Origin: a virus
Strand: one strand, 5' to 3'
Virus record (IMG/VR): IMGVR_UViG_3300030329_005103
Span: 1 to 39,390 of that record
DNA length: 39,390 nt
Both the position numbers and the translations under genes were made by a program. The stretch's first letter is position 1. Each line of letters opens with the position of its first letter. Positions 861-39,113 of this stretch are shown here, one piece after another. The notes below the pieces were generated by a model. The model did not search any database. It was not told the DNA's origin and was given only the letters and a program-made list of their open reading frames with translations.

Positions 861-864
<4 letters not shown>
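640..864 (+). CDS. XRE-family helix-turn-helix regulator
   Basis: A 74-aa DNA-binding protein with a Cro/C1-type HTH: LLKEFRDKKKMTAEALAEKLGCDKYMICRYERGVHVPQ (about residues 16-53) has the usual 'LAEKLG....I..YERG' spacing. There is no second domain, so it is Cro-sized. GGAG lies upstream of the ATG inside the end of the nuclease gene. It is the only recognisable transcription factor in the window and so the best candidate to bind the GTTGCGG-type operators; that link is inference. Its stop overlaps the end of the opposing helicase gene by 4 bases. Confidence 0.85.
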
Positions 865-2360
<1,496 letters not shown>

Positions 2361-3605: not shown

Positions 3606-4339
3606 CTTTCTATAAGCTAGTCAAGAATTCGCAGCCCGGTGGGAAGCTTGGCGGTATGACTGCCGTATGGGTGTCGTCGAATACATGCCCACCGAGCTGC
3701 GCCTTTAACATCGAAGAGAGCTGTTACGGGATGTTTTGGAATGCCGCGAAAACGTGGGACAAAGTTTCAGCGGGTGACGGTTTGAGCTTTGATGAGCTCG
3801 TGCGGCGGTTTCGTGATGCGGGGTTATCTCGCTACATCCGATGGGCTCCCGCTGGTGACTTGCCAGGGGAGGGCGAATGTATCGACGGGGCTCGTCTTCG
3901 TCGTCTCGTCGTCGCGCTCTCTCGCTGGTTCGTCGGCTTCATCATGTACACACACAAGGCAATAGAGGGTGTTCACCTTCGCGGCCATTGGAGAACGAGG
4001 CGAGCGAACCGGGCCCACCTCGAGGCCGCTCTCTCGTCGTCGTCGTCTGCAATCAATCTGAGTTGTGACAATGCAGGGGAAGCTGAGAGAGCTATGGAGC
4101 TGGGTTTCGATTGCACTATGCCCATGCCATCGGATTACCAGGGGAATGGTGAGCCGGTGGGCCGGTTCAAGGGTCGGCTCTGCTGGGCTCAGTCCGGGGA
4201 GGATAGGAGCTGTTCAAATTGCGGAGCTGGGCAACCCTGGTGTTCTATCAAGGGTCGGGGCTTTGTTGTTCAGTTCAAATCTCACGGGGCCAGGAGGTCA
4301 ACGGTTGATAGGCGGCTGGCTATGCCCATCCTGAACTAA
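3602..4339 (+). CDS. Conserved Cys-rich phage protein (DUF7227-like)
   Basis: A 245-aa member of a phage family of unknown function that I recall by its pattern: SNTCPPSC-x8-CYG near the N-terminus, a 'W.PAGDLPGEG..ID...L..L' segment, a 'YTHKA' segment, 'AINLSCDNA', and a C-terminal Cys cluster CSNCGAGQPWC followed by a VQFKSHG end. The seven or more spaced cysteines suggest a bound metal or Fe-S cluster; no reaction is known to me. A run of five Ser (about 145-149) is encoded by a TCG repeat, another instance of the local GTCGTC triplet bias. It is the last gene of the first early operon, followed at once by a terminator. Confidence 0.7.
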   Translation: MTFYKLVKNSQPGGKLGGMTAVWVSSNTCPPSCAFNIEESCYGMFWNAAKTWDKVSAGDGLSFDELVRRFRDAGLSRYIRWAPAGDLPGEGECIDGARLRRLVVALSRWFVGFIMYTHKAIEGVHLRGHWRTRRANRAHLEAALSSSSSAINLSCDNAGEAERAMELGFDCTMPMPSDYQGNGEPVGRFKGRLCWAQSGEDRSCSNCGAGQPWCSIKGRGFVVQFKSHGARRSTVDRRLAMPILN

Positions 4340-4343
4340 GAAG

Positions 4344-4371
4344 AGCCCGGCCATGTGTCGGGCTTTTTTTT
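4344..4371 (+). terminator. Intrinsic terminator after early operon 1
   Basis: AGCCCG (4344-4349) pairs with CGGGCT (4359-4364), with a 9-base loop closed partly by an extra G-C, and seven T residues follow directly (4365-4371). It sits 5 bases after the 4339 stop, a textbook rho-independent terminator. Confidence 0.93.
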
Positions 4372-4392
4372 GCCCACTGCTCCTGGGTTTAT

Positions 4393-4410
4393 GTTGCGCA
4401 ATGCCGCAAC
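4393..4410. promoter_or_regulatory. Operator copy 2 (GTTGCGCAATGCCGCAAC)
   Basis: Eighteen bases matching copy 1 in both outer half-sites (GTTGCG and CCGCAAC). It sits between the terminator and the 4454 gene. Its left half provides a -35 (TTGCGC, 4394-4399), with GATATT 17 bases downstream (4417-4422) as -10, so a bound protein would block this promoter. Confidence 0.75.
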
Positions 4411-4422
4411 ACGTGAGATATT
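4394..4422 (+). promoter_or_regulatory. Promoter for early operon 4454-6254
   Basis: TTGCGC, 17-base spacer, GATATT, placed 32 bases before the first ATG and just after a strong terminator, so an independent promoter is needed here. The downstream CACTAACC resembles the CTCTAACC seen after the other operator-bearing plus promoters. Confidence 0.5.
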
Positions 4423-4453
4423 CAGATTTTTACCCACTAACCAAGGGGCAACC

Positions 4454-4939
4454 ATGGAACATTACCAGTTTTTTAAAATCGGTCGATTTGACGCAAAGGT
4501 GGGCCTGGCCTTTGTCGATCGCGGCTTTCGGTTTTACTTTCCGGCGCAAGGCAAAACCAGCAACCTCAAGCCCCGTAATCCTGAGCGGCGCCAGATGCAC
4601 CTCGCTATGATTTGTTGGGCAGGGCAAGACGGGGGGATCTTGTGGGTCGAGGGGTTCCGGGCTGGGAAGGGGAGGCCCTACAGTGATTTCTCTCGGGACA
4701 ACCCGAGCACGGGGACACCTTACCCGAGCTATACACAGTTTCGTGATTTCTTCCCGGTGCCCAAGGCCGGGAAATTTGCATACTGGCTCTACTGCAATGG
4801 GTCGGGCGCTCTCCCGTTCGCAAAGAGTCAACAACTCACGCCCGAGGATCGGGTGGGCCGATTGGCCACGATGCTCGGGCTGGTACCCACAACCAATGCG
4901 CGGCCGGTATCTGTCCGGTTCGCGAAGCCATCACACTGA
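4454..4939 (+). CDS. Hypothetical early protein, 161 aa
   Basis: ATG 4454 is chosen because AAGGGG lies five bases upstream; the frame is open further back but would run through the operator and terminator. The product is aromatic-rich and probably globular (GLAFVDRGFRFYFPAQG, ILWVEGFRAGKGRPYSDFSR, YPSYTQFRDFF). No known motif. First gene of the second early operon under operator copy 2. Confidence 0.65.
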   Translation: MEHYQFFKIGRFDAKVGLAFVDRGFRFYFPAQGKTSNLKPRNPERRQMHLAMICWAGQDGGILWVEGFRAGKGRPYSDFSRDNPSTGTPYPSYTQFRDFFPVPKAGKFAYWLYCNGSGALPFAKSQQLTPEDRVGRLATMLGLVPTTNARPVSVRFAKPSH

Positions 4940-4957
4940 ATTAGGAGAATCAAGCAC

Positions 4958-5482
4958 ATGAGTATTTTAGACAGCAATGAAAAGAAGTTGATCACGTCTG
5001 CGGCAAACCGGCTGAGGATGTTTGTTGAAGATCGGACCGGCGGGGGTGATATCTGGTTTCGGGTGGATTCTACGCGGCGATTTGTAAAGCGCGGGCTTCG
5101 GGGAAAATATCCCGGCTCGGTTGAAGCTCTAGCACTGGGCTTTGCCCTGGTGGAGCTTCGCTTCGGTCTCCGGTCCCCTCACGATTCCTGTGAGCGGCTC
5201 CTTCTTTGTCCCGCTGGCAATGAGGGCGGTTCTCTGCGTGCTGGCTATCCTACGCTAGCTGAAAAGGCTGGGGTTGAGCTGTTCGCCAGGGTTTCAGGTG
5301 AGCTGCACAATTCCGAGAATTGGTATCACGAGGAATTCAAGAACATCGAGCCATGGGATCAGGACCACGAGCACAACCCAATGGGCATGGATCATCGCTC
5401 GGTGGTGCAGCTCCTGGCGCATCTGGACACCGTGAAGGGAATTATGGATGAGGCATTTAAAGAGGTTGGGGGTGTCTTATGA
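4958..5482 (+). CDS. Hypothetical early protein, 174 aa
   Basis: Preceded by AGGAG and an 18-base gap after the previous gene. Mixed alpha/beta composition, with a His/Asp-rich stretch (WDQDHEHNPMGMDHR, about 129-143) that could bind metal and a helical C-terminus. No recognised family. ATGA overlap with the next gene. Confidence 0.65.
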   Translation: MSILDSNEKKLITSAANRLRMFVEDRTGGGDIWFRVDSTRRFVKRGLRGKYPGSVEALALGFALVELRFGLRSPHDSCERLLLCPAGNEGGSLRAGYPTLAEKAGVELFARVSGELHNSENWYHEEFKNIEPWDQDHEHNPMGMDHRSVVQLLAHLDTVKGIMDEAFKEVGGVL

Positions 5483-6042
5483 GCAAGTCAGAACGAATCC
5501 CATTCTACTCATCGACCGGGCGCCAGATTGATGCTCACTTTTCCGTTCATCGCGGATCTTCTGAGGCCTGCCTGCTCCCAGCTCCTAAGGACATCAGGAT
5601 CAAGTTCCATGCTCGCGGCGGGTCCAAGAAGGGCAAGAGTAAGCCGACTAACACGGAGTACTCTGAAGGGCTCCTGACGATGTGTCGACGGCTGGTAATG
5701 ATTCCTGGGCTGACCATCGGTGTCGGTTATCTGGACACTAGAACGGTTCAAGATGCCGAGTTCAGCTCTCGCTGGATCCTTCCCCTGGCGCTCAAGCCCG
5801 GCGATCTGGCGGATGACAAGGGCACGGCGAAAGCTGAGCTGCTCAAGCGGATGATCAGCCGCGGGCAATCGCTCAAGAGCAAGAATCCGGGCAAGGGGAA
5901 CACCACACGAGCCTTCTCGCTGGTGATCCACTTCGAGCGCGGCGTACCTCCTGAGAATCTGATTGATTGGCTCTCCCGGGGTCCTACGCACTGCTCGGTT
6001 GAGACTTCTGCGATGCTTTGCGAGGGGGGGTTAGTGAAATGA
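5479..6042 (+). CDS. Hypothetical early protein, 187 aa
   Basis: Overlaps the preceding and following genes by ATGA motifs. The product has a basic, flexible region around 48-58 (GGSKKGKSKPTN) and a segment that looks like beta sheet (RAFSLVIHFERGVP). No nuclease, methylase or other signature found. Third gene of early operon 2. Confidence 0.65.
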   Translation: MSKSERIPFYSSTGRQIDAHFSVHRGSSEACLLPAPKDIRIKFHARGGSKKGKSKPTNTEYSEGLLTMCRRLVMIPGLTIGVGYLDTRTVQDAEFSSRWILPLALKPGDLADDKGTAKAELLKRMISRGQSLKSKNPGKGNTTRAFSLVIHFERGVPPENLIDWLSRGPTHCSVETSAMLCEGGLVK

Positions 6043-6254
6043 CGCAGATTTTTGTTGATGCGAGGGGCTATGTCGAGGTGCGAGCTGTTCAGGTTGATTG
6101 CGATGGCGATATTGAGCTGTACATTAAGAGGCCAAAGCGGGGGTATGAGTGGATCAACCTGGAGGCCTGCCAGCTGTCGCCAGAGGACCTAGCGAGGGTC
6201 CGGGCTGATTTTCCTGATAGCTTCGAGCTGTCTGACTTCAAGCGGGGTGTGTAG
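6039..6254 (+). CDS. Hypothetical small early protein, 71 aa
   Basis: ATG 6039 lies in an ATGA overlap with the previous stop and has a G-rich ribosome site (GAGGGGGGG) upstream; the frame also opens at 6018 inside the previous gene. The product is acidic and beta-rich (QIFVDARGYVEVRAVQVDCDGDIELYIKRP). Last gene of the operon. Its TAG stop is part of the first GTGTAG copy of the downstream repeat array. Confidence 0.6.
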   Translation: MTQIFVDARGYVEVRAVQVDCDGDIELYIKRPKRGYEWINLEACQLSPEDLARVRADFPDSFELSDFKRGV

Positions 6255-6613
6255 GAAGCAAAAGCTATCTACACGTTGCTACACAGAGCCTCGGGATCTT
6301 CACGGATTCCGGGGCTTTTGTGCTTCTGGGGGGTGTAGGTGTGTAGATGCGTGTAGCAAGCAAAACCTATCTACACACAAGAAAAGGCCAGCGATTAAGA
6401 GGGCTTAACTCTACTCCGTGTAGATGTGTAGATGATATCTATGTACTAAGTACACACCCGAAACGAGCCAATACGGCGCGCACCATTAAGAGGGCCCCCT
6501 CTTTGCGTCACATCTACACACTGGCCAAAGCTCTCCGATGGGTTTAGGATTGGATCAACGTTGTTGGGTGTCTTACATCGATAGCCTAGAGACACCTATA
6601 ATTGTCGGTGTAG
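6249..6613. repeat. GTGTAG hexamer array (iteron-like)
   Basis: Eleven copies of GTGTAG or its complement CTACAC in 365 bases. Plus-strand copies start at 6249, 6333, 6341, 6351, 6418, 6426 and 6608; minus-strand copies at 6269, 6279, 6371 and 6514. Several are paired 8 or 10 bases apart, about one helical turn. Longer shared units are GTGTAGATG and CTATCTACAC. ATTAAGAGGGC also occurs twice (6394 and 6485). No convincing gene lies here; one 66-codon frame (6347-6547) has odd composition and no ribosome site. A protein-binding array (origin iterons or operator cluster) is the likeliest reading. Confidence 0.75.
6287..6320 (+). terminator. Probable intrinsic terminator after early operon 2
   Basis: AGCCTCGGGATC (6287-6298) pairs with GATTCCGGGGCT (6305-6316), with two G-T wobbles and a 6-base loop, followed by TTTTG. 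It lies 33 bases after the 6254 stop and inside the GTGTAG array. Confidence 0.75.
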
Positions 6614-6761
6614 GGCACCATTTCACGTTCTAGGGCCCTTCCTGGGCTGTTCTCGTGCTCATCTGACCCTGCGACAATGACTCCCGAGGTGGTGGCGATA
6701 GGTTCAGCTCGGTGTCCGCCTACGAATTGCGCGGTTTCTGCGCTTTTGGCGATAGGGCCCG

Positions 6762-7057
6762 CCGATAATTGACGCTCCTGGGCGGTGGGTGGGCGATAAT
6801 TGCCCCAATTAATCCCGCTGAAGTGGCTGGGCAATTAATGGCCGAATAATTGCCGGCGGCCGCAATTCGGATAATTGGGGGCTCACCGAATGGCCTTTCG
6901 CAATTCCGGTAAGTCCCTCCCAGCCTATCGCCTGTCTTTCGTTCGGTGTCGTCGACGGATTGCCGAATAATTGCGACATTGCGCAACAACGGCAGGGGCA
7001 AGGGGGATTAATTGCCCCAAATCCGTTCGGTGGGGGCCATATATCGCCGAATAATGC
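6762..7057. repeat. AT-rich repeat series CCGAATAATTGC (candidate origin region)
   Basis: The pattern C[CG]GA(A)TAATTG[CA] recurs at 6762, 6793, 6842, 6868, 6963 and 7047, with exact 12-mers at 6842-6853 and 6963-6974. A second interleaved motif, (G)GGCAATTAATCCC, occurs near 6803, at 6829 and inverted at 7002-7017. All stand in otherwise G+C-rich DNA with no credible gene on either strand. Such regular AT-rich repeats next to a separate hexamer array fit a replication origin or a multi-operator control region ahead of the late operon. Confidence 0.65.
6970..6987. promoter_or_regulatory. Weak operator copy 5 (ATTGCGACATTGCGCAAC)
   Basis: Matches the operator pattern in TTGCG and CGCAAC with the same 18-base length, but has one changed base in each half-site. 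It overlaps the second CCGAATAATTGC repeat. I see no promoter at the spacing used at the other sites, so this may be chance or a site acting on the origin or late control region. Confidence 0.35.
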
Positions 7058-7190
7058 TCTGAAAGTGCTTCGAGGGGGGGGGTGCCCCCGATGCCGATGC
7101 CTCCCTTTATTTTTATATACCCTGACACTCACTCGATTAATCTCACGAATTAACACAGCGCGTTATTTCTGGCCCCAAAAAAACCGATAG

Positions 7191-7219
7191 TTGTTTTATT
7201 TTCCTCACCTCTGTATTCT
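7191..7219 (+). promoter_or_regulatory. Candidate late-operon promoter
   Basis: TTGTTT (7191-7196), 17-base spacer, TATTCT (7214-7219), 22 bases before the first late gene at 7242. It is the only sigma70-like pair at good spacing just upstream of the late operon. No GTTGCGG operator overlaps it, unlike the early promoters. Confidence 0.5.
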
Positions 7220-7241
7220 TAGCTCAACGAGGGGAATCGCC

Positions 7242-7967
7242 ATGACCGAGTACACAAAGACTATTGTCTCAGCTCTCTCGAGCCGGAATTCCGATTATTC
7301 GGACCCGCACGTCCTGCTTCGAGAGGCGACTCAGACTGGGGCGAATGAAGTAACTCGCCGGATCGACGGTCGGCTAGAGGCCAATACGACAGATGGTACG
7401 AGCACCATTTATAAGGGGGCTGATTATTACAACCTCTCATTAATGGCTCTTGGTACAATCGATAGTTTCATTTTCCACAACCGTTCTGACGTAGAACTTG
7501 CCTTGACTGTGTTCGCTTTCCTTGGTGAATTCACTACCGACACCAACCCTGGCGATATTGCTGTGACGAGCAGCCATATTACCTCATCGGTATCTCAGGC
7601 TTTTTACCGGGGGGTCTATACCCCTGGCGCGGCTACCCATGCTCTTACCTATAGCGCGAACGCTAGTAACAATAATGATTTCACCGAGATCTCTTCGATT
7701 GGGACGAGCAATACCCGGATTACGTCAACCGGTACGCCATGGGGGACCGCTGAGACAGATGCCGATATGAAAGTGCAGCTATTCCAGAAGCAGCTCCATT
7801 ATGTTCCTGCTGGTAAAATTTTAATGCTGCCCAATATCCGTAAAATTAAGACGGATATTGCTCAGCCAGAGGTTACGGTTGCCCATGGTTTTTCTAGCGA
7901 CGCCGGGATTACGCCAGTGACAACAGCCGCCGATTACACGATTTTCATGACAGGGACCAACAGCTAG
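7242..7967 (+). CDS. Hypothetical protein at head of late operon, 241 aa
   Basis: ATG 7242 has GAGGGGA seven bases upstream; the frame opens earlier (7191) but across the promoter. The sequence is Thr/Ser/Asn-rich and beta-like, with few charged helices (TSSVSQAFYRGVYTPGAATHALTYS), as in virion surface or decoration proteins. There is no signal peptide. It lies upstream of the terminase genes, so a structural role is likely but unproved. Confidence 0.6.
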   Translation: MTEYTKTIVSALSSRNSDYSDPHVLLREATQTGANEVTRRIDGRLEANTTDGTSTIYKGADYYNLSLMALGTIDSFIFHNRSDVELALTVFAFLGEFTTDTNPGDIAVTSSHITSSVSQAFYRGVYTPGAATHALTYSANASNNNDFTEISSIGTSNTRITSTGTPWGTAETDADMKVQLFQKQLHYVPAGKILMLPNIRKIKTDIAQPEVTVAHGFSSDAGITPVTTAADYTIFMTGTNS

Positions 7968-7990
7968 AAAAGACCGTCGCAGGGGTTTTT

Positions 7991-8434
7991 ATGTCGAAGA
8001 AGATTCATATGGGAGACCGGCTTAAGGTTCGGTACGACGAAGCATGCGGGCCCAAGGGCAGCAAGCTCGAACGTCGTGAAATTTTAGAGCTGGCAGAAAA
8101 AGACCTGGAAACAGAAGGGTCTAGAGTCCCAATCAACGCTCATACGGGCGAGCTCATCGACATCAAAGTCCTCCCAAGCCTCCATGCGGTGATGGAGTGC
8201 GCCTTAGGGGTTATCGATTCCGAGCTTCGCCGGATGCTTCGGACCTCGCAGACGGGAGGGGGCTTAGACCGCCACCAGTCTCAGGCATTTGGTCAGATGA
8301 CTCGCTCATTGGCCCAACTGGTCGGTGTGGACCAGCAACTCAAAGAAAAATCGGAGCTAGAGACGATGAGCGATGAAGACCTCATCAAGTTGGCAGAAAT
8401 AGCGACTAAGCGCCTAGCTGAGGGGGACGAATAA
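7991..8434 (+). CDS. Hypothetical helical protein, possible small terminase subunit
   Basis: A 147-aa, highly charged, helical protein two genes before a GNAT-like gene and three before the large terminase, which is where a small terminase subunit is expected. I cannot see a clear HTH; 'ERREILELAEKDLETEG' (about 27-43) might be part of one, and the C-terminal half is an oligomer-forming-type helix (ETMSDEDLIKLAEIATKRLAEG). AGGGG ribosome site; the stop overlaps the next start in TAATG. Confidence 0.5.
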   Translation: MSKKIHMGDRLKVRYDEACGPKGSKLERREILELAEKDLETEGSRVPINAHTGELIDIKVLPSLHAVMECALGVIDSELRRMLRTSQTGGGLDRHQSQAFGQMTRSLAQLVGVDQQLKEKSELETMSDEDLIKLAEIATKRLAEGDE

Positions 8435-8958
8435 TGCAGCAGGGGCGTAAAGAGTTCCGCGAGGCGTCTGAGAAGTATAACCCTTTGCGAGATTCGGGAA
8501 AATTGCCGGTTTATATCCGTCTCGCAGACAGCGGAGACGCCAGTTTTGTCTATAAGAGCTGGTTAGACTCTTGGTGGGTCCAAAATAAAGACCAGTTCCA
8601 GCCCCTGTTCTACAAGGGACATCGCCAGACTATTGCCCGGCTCATGGAAAACGCAATTACGGTAATTGCCTGCTCCGATGAAGACCCAAATCTGATTTTT
8701 GCGTGGATGTGTGGGCTTAGGACGGCAAATGGTCGCCTAATTATCCATTATTCCTACACCAAAGAGGCGTTTCGCAAATTTGGGCTAGCAAAAACCCTTT
8801 TGAGCTACTTCGAGCACACTAAGGGCGAGCCTATTCTTTGTAGCCACCGAAGTTTTATCTTCCGAGATATTAAGCAACCCTATAACCTGTTTTATGTCCC
8901 GAGCTTGCAACAGCCCGATGGCGTATCAAAGATTGAGAGCGAAGAATGGAGATTGTAG
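8434..8958 (+). CDS. GNAT-fold acetyltransferase-like protein
   Basis: The 174-aa sequence follows the GNAT order: an N-terminal 'YIRLADSGDASFVYKSWLDSW', a central beta strand 'LIFAWMCGLRTANGRLIIHYSYTKEAFRKFGLAKTLLSYF' with the R-x-F-G-L-A turn in place of the usual acetyl-CoA loop, and a C-terminal strand region. Phages often carry such a protein just before the terminase, but its substrate is unknown. It overlaps neighbours by 1 and 13 bases. Confidence 0.6.
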   Translation: MQQGRKEFREASEKYNPLRDSGKLPVYIRLADSGDASFVYKSWLDSWWVQNKDQFQPLFYKGHRQTIARLMENAITVIACSDEDPNLIFAWMCGLRTANGRLIIHYSYTKEAFRKFGLAKTLLSYFEHTKGEPILCSHRSFIFRDIKQPYNLFYVPSLQQPDGVSKIESEEWRL

Positions 8959-9218
8959 CGATTCAGCTTACTGAGGGAGCCCGTAGCGTCCTAAACATGA
9001 GCTTTGTTAGTTCCGAGAACGAGAAGCACCGGGCCATGTATACGATGAAGCATAAAAGCATCGATGGGACGCCTGGTATTCTGCTTCGGCATGAGCAGAA
9101 GGGGGATTATTGGCTCCCTATGACCTCCATCGCCTGGTGTCGTGTGCGGGAGAAGCCAGCGGCAAAGCGGGGTCGTCCTCGCAAGTCGCAGCAGGTTCAA
9201 AGTGAAGCCGCCGCATAA
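8946..9218 (+). CDS. Small protein with AT-hook-like tail, 90 aa
   Basis: The first 65 residues look like a beta domain (MYTMKHKSIDGTPGILLRH); the tail KPAAKRGRPRKS contains an RGRPRK AT-hook-like motif that could touch the DNA minor groove. Located directly before and overlapping the large terminase gene, so a DNA-binding packaging accessory is possible, but this is inferred from position. The ribosome site is weak, typical of coupled translation. Confidence 0.55.
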   Translation: MEIVAIQLTEGARSVLNMSFVSSENEKHRAMYTMKHKSIDGTPGILLRHEQKGDYWLPMTSIAWCRVREKPAAKRGRPRKSQQVQSEAAA

Positions 9219-37225: not shown

Positions 37226-38265
37226 CAGACATGGTTAAAGCGGTTGAAGAAGCCCTGATGATGAACAATTTTGAAAGGCTTCCGGCTGAGGCTCGGGTGG
37301 CTTACTTGCACCAGCTCTGTGAAAGCATGGGGCTAAACCCTCTGTCTCATCCATTCGAGTTTATCAAGCTCAATGGCCGGTGGACTCTTTATGCGAAGAA
37401 GGGCTGCACGGACCAGCTTCGGGCAGTTAACGGCGTGAACATTGAGATTGTTGAGAACACCATTCATGACCACCAGGTCTATGTGCATGTTCGTGCAACT
37501 GTTCCGGATGACAGGTTTCCTACCGGGGTAAGGAGCGACGAGGATATAGGCGTTGTCTTTATTGGCAGCGGCGCAGAAGCTCTCAATAATCGCATGAAGG
37601 CCGTTACCAAGGCCAAGCGGCGAGTGACTCTATCCATTTGCGGTCTTGGGTTTATCGACGAGACTGAGCTGGAGACGGTTAAGTCAGAGGTTCCTGCCCG
37701 TGCCGAGGAGCTTTTGGGCAAACCAAAGCCCGCTCTCCCTCCTTCTCAGAATGTTCAGGAGACTGCTAATGAGCTACTGGCTCCGTATGTTACGGTTCCT
37801 GCGAAGACACGTGAGCAGGTTGATGCCGAGATGGCCGATCTCGATCGGGCAATTGCTAAGCGCATTGAAGACGCGGTAAAGCCGAAAGACGATGCTGCAG
37901 TGGCTGTCGTTACAGGTGAGCAGTTGCGCAACTCGCCTAGCACTGAGGCTGTTGTTGCTGAGGTGAAGAAGCAGCTCAAGCAGCAGCCCAAGCAGGAAGA
38001 TAAGCCTAAGCGCGGGAGAAGAAGCAATGCCGTTCGGATGGCTGAGGCTGTTGGTGTCTTTGAAAAGCTAGGTATTAATGAGGCTCAAATTCAGGCTTAT
38101 TTGGACCTTGCAGATCTTACAAAGGCAAATAGCAAGGATATTGATAAGCTACTGGAAGCGCATGCAGAAGTCAGAGATGGAGCAAACCCCGACGACATCT
38201 TTGATTCAGGACATCCAACCGAGATACCGCCACTCCCCACTGGCGATATTAAGGAGATGTTTTGA
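37222..38265 (+). CDS. RecT/Bet-type single-strand annealing protein
   Basis: 347 aa from ATG 37222 (AAGGAG five bases upstream, ATGA overlap with the exonuclease stop). 'LHQLCESMGLNPLSHPFEFIKLNGRWTLYAKKGCTDQLR' corresponds to the 'yglnPf...i....g..pvvg.dG' core of Bet/RecT. 'NNRMKAVTKAKRRVTLSICGLGFIDETELETV' (about 115-150) is a signature I recall from phage annealing proteins. The C-terminal half (after ~170) is helical and basic (QQPKQEDKPKRGRRSN), likely a partner- or DNA-binding tail. Paired with the exonuclease as in Red/RecET systems. Confidence 0.75.
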   Translation: MTDMVKAVEEALMMNNFERLPAEARVAYLHQLCESMGLNPLSHPFEFIKLNGRWTLYAKKGCTDQLRAVNGVNIEIVENTIHDHQVYVHVRATVPDDRFPTGVRSDEDIGVVFIGSGAEALNNRMKAVTKAKRRVTLSICGLGFIDETELETVKSEVPARAEELLGKPKPALPPSQNVQETANELLAPYVTVPAKTREQVDAEMADLDRAIAKRIEDAVKPKDDAAVAVVTGEQLRNSPSTEAVVAEVKKQLKQQPKQEDKPKRGRRSNAVRMAEAVGVFEKLGINEAQIQAYLDLADLTKANSKDIDKLLEAHAEVRDGANPDDIFDSGHPTEIPPLPTGDIKEMF

Positions 38266-39113
38266 GCATGCTGGACTGGGCACTCTGGTATTGTCGCCAG
38301 GGGTTAGAGGTTTTCCCCGTTCATCGCATTCGTGATAACGGGCTCTGCTCCTGCGGCGATCCAGGGTGTTCATCACCGGGCAAGCATCCAGTAATCAGCA
38401 ATGGCGTTCGGGGCGCTTCGGCTGATTTGGATTTAGCTCGGGACCGATGGGGCCTTTACCCCAAGGCTAACATCGGGATTCACACTAACAAGCTCATTGT
38501 TCTAGATGTTGATGGCGAGGTGGGTATGGAGTCGCTACGCAGGCTCTGTAATGGGGATGTCCCCTTTGGCTTTGAGCCAAGAAGAAAGGTTCTTGAACGG
38601 GCTCCCAGGGTAAGAACTGGCGGGCGCGGCGCCCATTACTTCTTCAGACCTCGTCCTGGCACAAGCCTTACTAACAAGGTGGGCTTTATGCCTGGTTTAG
38701 ACATCCGGTCAGAAGGTGGTTACGTCGTAGCTCCTCCGTCGAATCACGCATCGGGTAATATGTATACCTGGGTTGCAGGGCTCCAAGAACAACGGGTACC
38801 TCGAGTACCTCTGTGGTTAGTGAAGACCGTGCAAGCCTCTAGCAATATTAGAGTTTTGCCCAACCAAGACTCGGGCGGAATCAGAAGAATTGAGATTCAG
38901 GCGTTGGCCACAATTGAAGAGGGCACTCGCCACGACAGTCTGAAGTCGTTGTGCGGGCGTCTTTTTTGGGAGGGTCGAGGCTCTGATGAAGTTTGGACAG
39001 TGCTGAACACAATTAACCAAACCTTATGCAAGCCCCCTTATCCAGAGAATGGTCTCAAAAAGATTTTTGACTGGACCAACAAGCGGGAGCAGATGAAGAG
39101 GAGAACAAGGTGA
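38262..39113 (+). CDS. Prim-Pol (AEP) primase, stand-alone
   Basis: 283 aa; N-terminal bifunctional primase-polymerase domain. Landmarks: 'DWALWYCRQGLEVFPV', a Cys-rich 'CSCGDPGCSSPGKHP', the catalytic 'NKLIVLDVDGE' (DxD), 'TGGRGAHYFFRP', then 'GLDIRSEGGYVVAPPSNHASGNMYTW'. The C-terminal region (RIEIQALATIEEGTRHDSLKSLCG) is the helical module that usually links to a helicase; here no helicase follows. Start: TTG 38262 overlaps the RecT stop (TTGA) with GGAG five bases upstream; ATG 38268 is the alternative. Confidence 0.85.
   Translation: MSMLDWALWYCRQGLEVFPVHRIRDNGLCSCGDPGCSSPGKHPVISNGVRGASADLDLARDRWGLYPKANIGIHTNKLIVLDVDGEVGMESLRRLCNGDVPFGFEPRRKVLERAPRVRTGGRGAHYFFRPRPGTSLTNKVGFMPGLDIRSEGGYVVAPPSNHASGNMYTWVAGLQEQRVPRVPLWLVKTVQASSNIRVLPNQDSGGIRRIEIQALATIEEGTRHDSLKSLCGRLFWEGRGSDEVWTVLNTINQTLCKPPYPENGLKKIFDWTNKREQMKRRTR

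Follow-up and report, generated by a model that had tools for sequence, protein, structure and literature searches.

A repeat array and an adjacent three-arm pairing element form a candidate replication origin in an uncultured phage lineage

Little is known about the origins of phages that carry primase-polymerase and D5 helicase modules. Replicons of the pRN1 family, with a primase-polymerase and an SF3 helicase, require a stem-loop of kept structure but variable sequence (PMC4234260), and the same type of stem-loop origin has been proposed for Bordetella phage BIP-1 (PMC4234260). In the alpha protein of phage P4, a Toprim primase is part of the same protein (PMC4234260). The oriV of RSF1010 has iterons and a priming hairpin, and is served by a separate primase, helicase and initiator (PMC4234260). 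The lambda ori consists of iterons plus a nearby promoter for a short RNA (PMC3985674), and some mycobacteriophage prophages need a region that produces a noncoding RNA in order to replicate (PMC7157519).

Here, we analyze a viral contig of 39,390 nucleotides (IMG/VR record IMGVR_UViG_3300030329_005103, positions 1 to 39,390; referred to as the window), which codes for a primase-polymerase and a D5-type helicase. A gap before its late genes holds a repeat array and, immediately downstream of it, three complementary arms (A, B and C). We tentatively read this gap as the phage replication origin, or as its cis-acting control region, composed of iterons and an RNA switch hairpin; we see somewhat less than an even chance for this. 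The A-B-C element, which had been missed in the first-pass annotation, is the most informative feature. The features referred to in the text are:

640-864: gene for a phage HTH protein
861..2360, minus strand: D5-type (SF3) helicase with a Pox_D5 C-terminal region (Pfam DUF5906, Pox_D5 and D5_N; PHROG DNA primase families), candidate initiator or loader
6249..6519, no strand: array 1, ten GTGTAG copies (6 plus, 4 minus) with the extended unit GTGTAGAT(G/A), based on shuffles and the RTGNAGAW count
6287..6321, plus strand: intrinsic-terminator-like hairpin of the upstream (early) gene, based on fold energy, followed by TTTTG and located inside the array
6522..6550, plus strand: promoter-like site TGGCCA-N17-TAGGAT, individually weak, 16 nt before arm A
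6556..6563, no strand: palindrome CAACGTTG just 5' of arm A
6567..6584, plus strand: arm A, complementary to B and C, based on complementarity and covariation
6589..6598, plus strand: arm B, pairs with the 5' part of A (A:B hairpin of about -13 kcal/mol in a truncated transcript)
6602..6619, plus strand: arm C, pairs with the whole of A (18 bp, five of them G.U) and holds the eleventh GTGTAG (6608-6613)
6766..7060, no strand: second repeat set, CAATTA / CCGAATAATTGCC, based on repeat counts
7078..7170, plus strand: conserved block GGGGGGGTGCCCCC...TACCCTGACACTCACTC... (alignment A7), directly before the late (structural, packaging) genes
38262..39113, plus strand: primase-polymerase (PHROG DNA polymerase/primase families), candidate primase at the putative origin

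Further genes of the window code for a VRR-nuclease, a RecE-like exonuclease, the terminase, the portal and the major head protein. Helicase and primase-polymerase are encoded by separate genes, and no primase domain was detected in the helicase ORF. The winged helix of the helicase is assigned by Pfam (Pox_D5) only, the AlphaFold model (mean pLDDT 41) being too poor to use. The helicase N-terminus in the window has Asp and Thr runs (13 consecutive Thr), which are missing from the leftward lineage described below. Searches with the terminase, the ORF 8434-8958 and the helicase retrieved about 50 related viral contigs. Annotated phage records have at best about 25-31% identity to the terminase or the helicase of the window. 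Cellular genomes, searched with terminase and helicase, contain no relative, phage records gave no match in a DNA search with window positions 4000-9000, and no relative was found with ORF 5479-6042, the neighbor of the gap, as a query.

The first-pass annotation had reported eleven GTGTAG hexamers in 6249-6613 (seven plus, four minus), with spacings of 8 and 10 bases. These counts are borne out (plus strand: 6249, 6333, 6341, 6351, 6418, 6426 and 6608; minus strand: 6269, 6279, 6371 and 6514). GTGTAG occurs at most 3 times in 5000 dinucleotide shuffles of 6249-6613, compared to the 11 observed. When any hexamer is admitted, the commonest one per 365 bases has no more than 7 copies if the whole window is shuffled (60 times) and no more than 6 if only the gap is shuffled (2000 times). 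The only hexamers of the window that are denser than GTGTAG are GAC-type repeats, all within the helicase ORF. The proposed extent of the array stands for ten copies (6249-6519), but not for the copy at 6608, which sits in arm C. Array 1 includes two 26-bp repeats, GTGTAGNAAGCAAAANCTATCTACAC (6249-6274 and 6351-6376, 92% identical), and two 17-bp units, GTGTAGRTGTGTAGATG (6333-6349 and 6418-6434, 94% identical). As had been noted, it starts in a stop codon, the first GTGTAG being the last sense codon plus the stop of ORF 6018-6254, and it surrounds a terminator, a hairpin at about 6287-6316 (-27.2 kcal/mol, z -5.0), although a simple terminator scan did not list the hairpin at 6287..6321. It also holds that there is no credible gene in the gap: its ORFs lack a homologue in the relatives, except for a near-identical fragment (L002/L006), which was also the only match for the exact 26-bp repeat among viral contigs. 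L002 is a contig of 5.4 kb (99.96% identical to the window) and begins at window position 6254, the final base of the first hexamer, as if the assembly had broken at the repeat. The term "iteron-like array" is a fair description, and a putative binding site of an initiator or regulator is still the best reading of array 1.

Close relatives had been named in the first-pass annotation as the place to look for a similar array, and they give a divided picture. Clusters of the pattern RTGNAGAW occur at the same place in part of the lineage (L019, L022, L025, L026, L027, L034, L035, L073 and the window), while L007, L009, L011, L012, L036, L030 and L033 have none at the array position. Overall, an array at this place is clear in 9 of 20 loci (window included), weak in 3 and absent in the rest. 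Nine loci have 4-7 copies of RTGNAGAW, a pattern defined only after the repeats in relatives had been seen, in the 435 bp before A-B-C, where 0.1-0.3 are expected (7 and 0.29, respectively, for the window). The exact GTGTAG hexamer is not enriched in other contigs of the lineage, and an open word count finds different repeats at about the array position in relatives. Because the excess in relatives is merely moderate with freely chosen words, we rate the conservation of the array across the lineage as supported but patchy. The C-terminal region of the helicase, a possible reader of the iterons, is very alike in the window and in L009/L036, yet their arrays differ; therefore, the iteron type does not track the helicase C-terminal domain. 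In some relatives the unit is TGTAGATAA, one letter off a DnaA box. Host DnaA boxes are a less likely identity of the array unit, as the unit drifts among relatives, which argues against a host reader.

The A-B-C element was found in twenty distinct copies, essentially one per gap-covering contig, at a constant position and always on the terminase strand. L003-L005, which are near the window, do not reach the gap. A sequence-blind scan for complementarity and spacing (1.94 Mb of strand-bases) detects it once per contig at the gap, with three stray matches elsewhere; the element of L007 was detected only at the lower threshold of another scan. An alignment of all elements by MAFFT misplaces arms between groups, and pair counts were therefore made on register-anchored arms. 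A:C pairing is present in 336 of 360 cells from the 20 distinct elements (with C arms swapped: mean 170, maximum 220), with the register set by Watson-Crick matches only and with sequences that are akin, so that cells are not independent events. For the group-2 alignment, the observed paired cells and covariation score were reached in 0 of 500 shuffles. A:B pairing is also kept (18 of 19 elements score at least 7, compared to 3.5% of shuffled loops). Thus, the structure of the stem is kept while its sequence varies. A covariance model (R1), based on 13 group-2 sequences, recovers group 2 but neither the window nor group 1, so that the window copy is counted as a member on account of its position, its geometry and the sequence-blind scan for complementarity. 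We consider it highly probable that A-B-C is a conserved one-strand structure. The element itself is well supported; its function at an origin is what we infer.

RNA folding of the A-B-C region of the window yields a z of -4.9. For all elements, a transcript that ends early in C is predicted to fold A:B, and the full-length transcript A:C. Rfam, including its phage antisense and plasmid copy-control RNAs, had no relevant match in the gap of the window or in eight relatives. At the place of the palindrome, most relatives have TAACGTTA, and another lineage has GTTAAC.

G.T pairs (69) far outnumber A.C pairs (7) in A:C when the register is set by Watson-Crick pairs only, which argues that the folding of one strand is under selection; such an excess is not expected of a double-stranded cruciform. 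Selection probably sees this strand as RNA. An RNA is favored because a weak sigma-70-like site recurs at a constant distance from A: in the window and in group-2 loci, the distance from the end of its -10 to A is 14-16 nt, and its spacer is 17 or 18. Many relatives have TTGA(A/C)N-N18-AATSAT-like sites at the equivalent place; in group 1, the best promoter-like site is located elsewhere, and a stricter promoter scan finds no site in the window. Other promoter-like sites, of early type, overlap a TTGACG...CGTCAA dyad in L018 (around 625), L022 (around 693) and L034 (around 7040, where the dyad is partial), and an AGCTAAC leader comes after the dyad in all three. This suggests that the dyad is a common early operator.

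The gene order shared across the lineage is primase-polymerase, VRR-nuclease, helicase, a variable early block, the gap and the late genes. The early block is rightward in the window, L009, L011 and L036 and leftward in L025, L028, L034 and L037. Four relatives (L018, L028, L034 and L035) have conserved leftward genes between A-B-C and the late genes to its right, and leftward genes are also found to its left; the neighbors in the window are rightward. The change of direction of neighbor genes on both sides argues against A-B-C as a fixed leader or attenuator. A conserved leftward gene for 99 aa (6682-6981, minus strand, in L034) adjoins the array in L034, L018, L038 and L039, and L030 and L076 have this gene as well.

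To the right of the element, the second repeat set of the window and its counterparts in relatives are possibly operators of late genes. Relatives have other repeats downstream of C, namely tandem copies of CCYGAATA and TGAAY-N4-RTTCA dyads. These dyads occur about every 33 bp in L022 (1140-1300), L030 (4780-4920), L032 and L037, and L018 has a 12-bp tandem repeat, GTCCTGAATA, at 1011-1110. The block at 7078-7170, for which CCCTCACACTCACTC and TGACGCANTGCG-like sequence are aligned in relatives, may serve as a late promoter or in packaging.

If the gap is an origin, array 1 would be the iterons for a phage-encoded initiator, most likely from the primase-polymerase / D5-helicase module. Judging from its position, the weak promoter right of the array would start a short rightward transcript at about 6557, the first 60 nt of which would hold the A-B-C switch. 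In the nascent RNA, A would pair with B first, and C would then displace B to form the 18-bp A:C hairpin. Through an initiator bound next to the promoter, on the iterons, transcription and initiation would be coupled, and transcript and switch would likely serve to open the origin, to prime it or to keep the frequency of its firing in check. This role would be comparable to that of the alternative RNA II foldings of ColE1 or, next to the lambda iterons, of oop RNA and the promoter pO. That we are dealing with a protein-initiated origin which has an RNA copy-control switch of its own, with two exclusive hairpins gating firing beside iterons, is on balance unlikely.

Several observations speak for an origin. 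The repeat count of the array by far exceeds chance, and several lineages have a related unit at this position. A-B-C is located beside the array in all distinct loci that cover this point, and its pairing outlives sequence turnover. Primase-polymerase and D5 helicase are both present and, by analogy, may act on a structure-kept stem-loop as such proteins do in pRN1. Persistence of array and A-B-C despite the changes among their neighbors fits a cis-acting origin and not a leader or attenuator. On the other side, the array unit is unrecognizable in about half of the relatives, the promoter of the window is weak, R1 misses the window copy, and the iteron type does not follow the helicase C-terminus. 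The GC-skew analysis proposed in the first-pass annotation as a check for an origin gave no sign of one, as the cumulative skew is without a turn. No AT-rich unwinding stretch is found beside the array (GC is 41-61% in 100-bp steps from 6150 to 7100).

The silent GC skew would also agree with a start of replication elsewhere, the gap being a regulatory hub in which array 1 consists of repressor or activator operators and A-B-C acts as a small regulatory RNA, with a switch that governs either the stability of this RNA or a partner. We consider this combination somewhat unlikely. In its favor, array 1 of the leftward lineage lies between two divergent promoter-like sites, with reverse-oriented units that abut a -35-like element, and the window codes for an HTH protein. 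However, the gene for the latter was detected only in that half of the lineage to which the window belongs, array and element persist while flanking genes change identity and direction, and the window transcript has no complement longer than 11 nt elsewhere in the window, a length that does not exceed that in shuffled controls. It is also conceivable, if rather improbable, that the plus strand folds A:C (or A:B) as single-stranded DNA once the iteron region is opened, and that this hairpin is the priming site of the primase-polymerase, in the manner of the ssi hairpins of RSF1010 or of the stem-loop proposed for pRN1. The gene module is indeed that of pRN1-type replicons (PMC4234260), the window lacks a strong promoter, and the strand asymmetry fits too, because G.T is better tolerated than A.C also in DNA. 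A nascent transcript nevertheless explains better both the A:B/A:C alternative and the promoter-like site at a constant distance, and RSF1010 has two ssi sites where one is seen here.

The late genes come next on the strand of the element in the window and in L009/L011/L036, as would be required if the promoter at 6522-6550 made the late transcript and A:C were a terminator overcome by an antiterminator. We hold such a leader or attenuator of the late operon to be very improbable, since conserved leftward genes separate the element from the late genes in L018, L028, L034 and L035, A:C lacks a proper U run behind it, and the late genes of several relatives have separate repeats of their own further right. 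Least credible of all is a chance or low-complexity clustering without function. The hexamers were selected post hoc, gaps in phage genomes often have short repeats, and other 400-bp windows of some relatives are equally repetitive; yet the counts are far above those in shuffles, clusters recur at the same place in relatives, and the neighboring element covaries.

The region is a precise origin candidate with two separable parts, the array and a strand-specific switch element, and can be followed through about twenty related contigs from an uncultured lineage. Covariation points to the pairs whose breaking and restoring would be informative. If the element is an RNA, RNA-based control would be joined to a protein-initiated phage origin. 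To our knowledge, a three-part switch is not known from the pRN1 family, BIP-1, lambda or mycobacteriophage origins.

Among the described systems, pRN1 from Sulfolobus is similar in having a primase-polymerase, an SF3 helicase, a winged helix and a stem-loop with kept structure and variable sequence. Its origin is about 100 nt long, has a 21-nt stem, is located behind the replication gene and lacks iterons. In contrast, the stem described here has 18 bp and a short loop, a competing A:B pairing, strand-asymmetric G.T pairs and an iteron array beside it. The region is not directly 3' of a replication gene but about 3.9 kb from the start of the helicase gene (861-2360, minus strand), and primase and helicase are separate genes. 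Phage P4 resembles our case by its repeats in cis and by a D5-type helicase whose C-terminal winged-helix region is the candidate binder. The P4 origin has two cis regions, whereas the window has one array, a separate primase-polymerase gene and no Toprim-type primase in the helicase ORF.

With lambda, the locus shares iterons that have a promoter for a short RNA (pO, oop RNA) nearby. Lambda differs by its four 19-bp iterons, which are bound by O, by its use of host DnaB and DnaG, and by an oop RNA that is antisense to cII; we know of no A-B-C switch in lambda. A noncoding transcript at the origin, as proposed here, is a likeness to ColE1 RNA II, which has competing foldings, and to mycobacteriophage prophage origins. 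Unlike in these, no second antisense RNA is seen, primase and helicase are the phage's own, and there is no Rfam match. RSF1010, finally, has two ssi hairpins (ssiA and ssiB), whereas the element described here is one hairpin with two alternative foldings.
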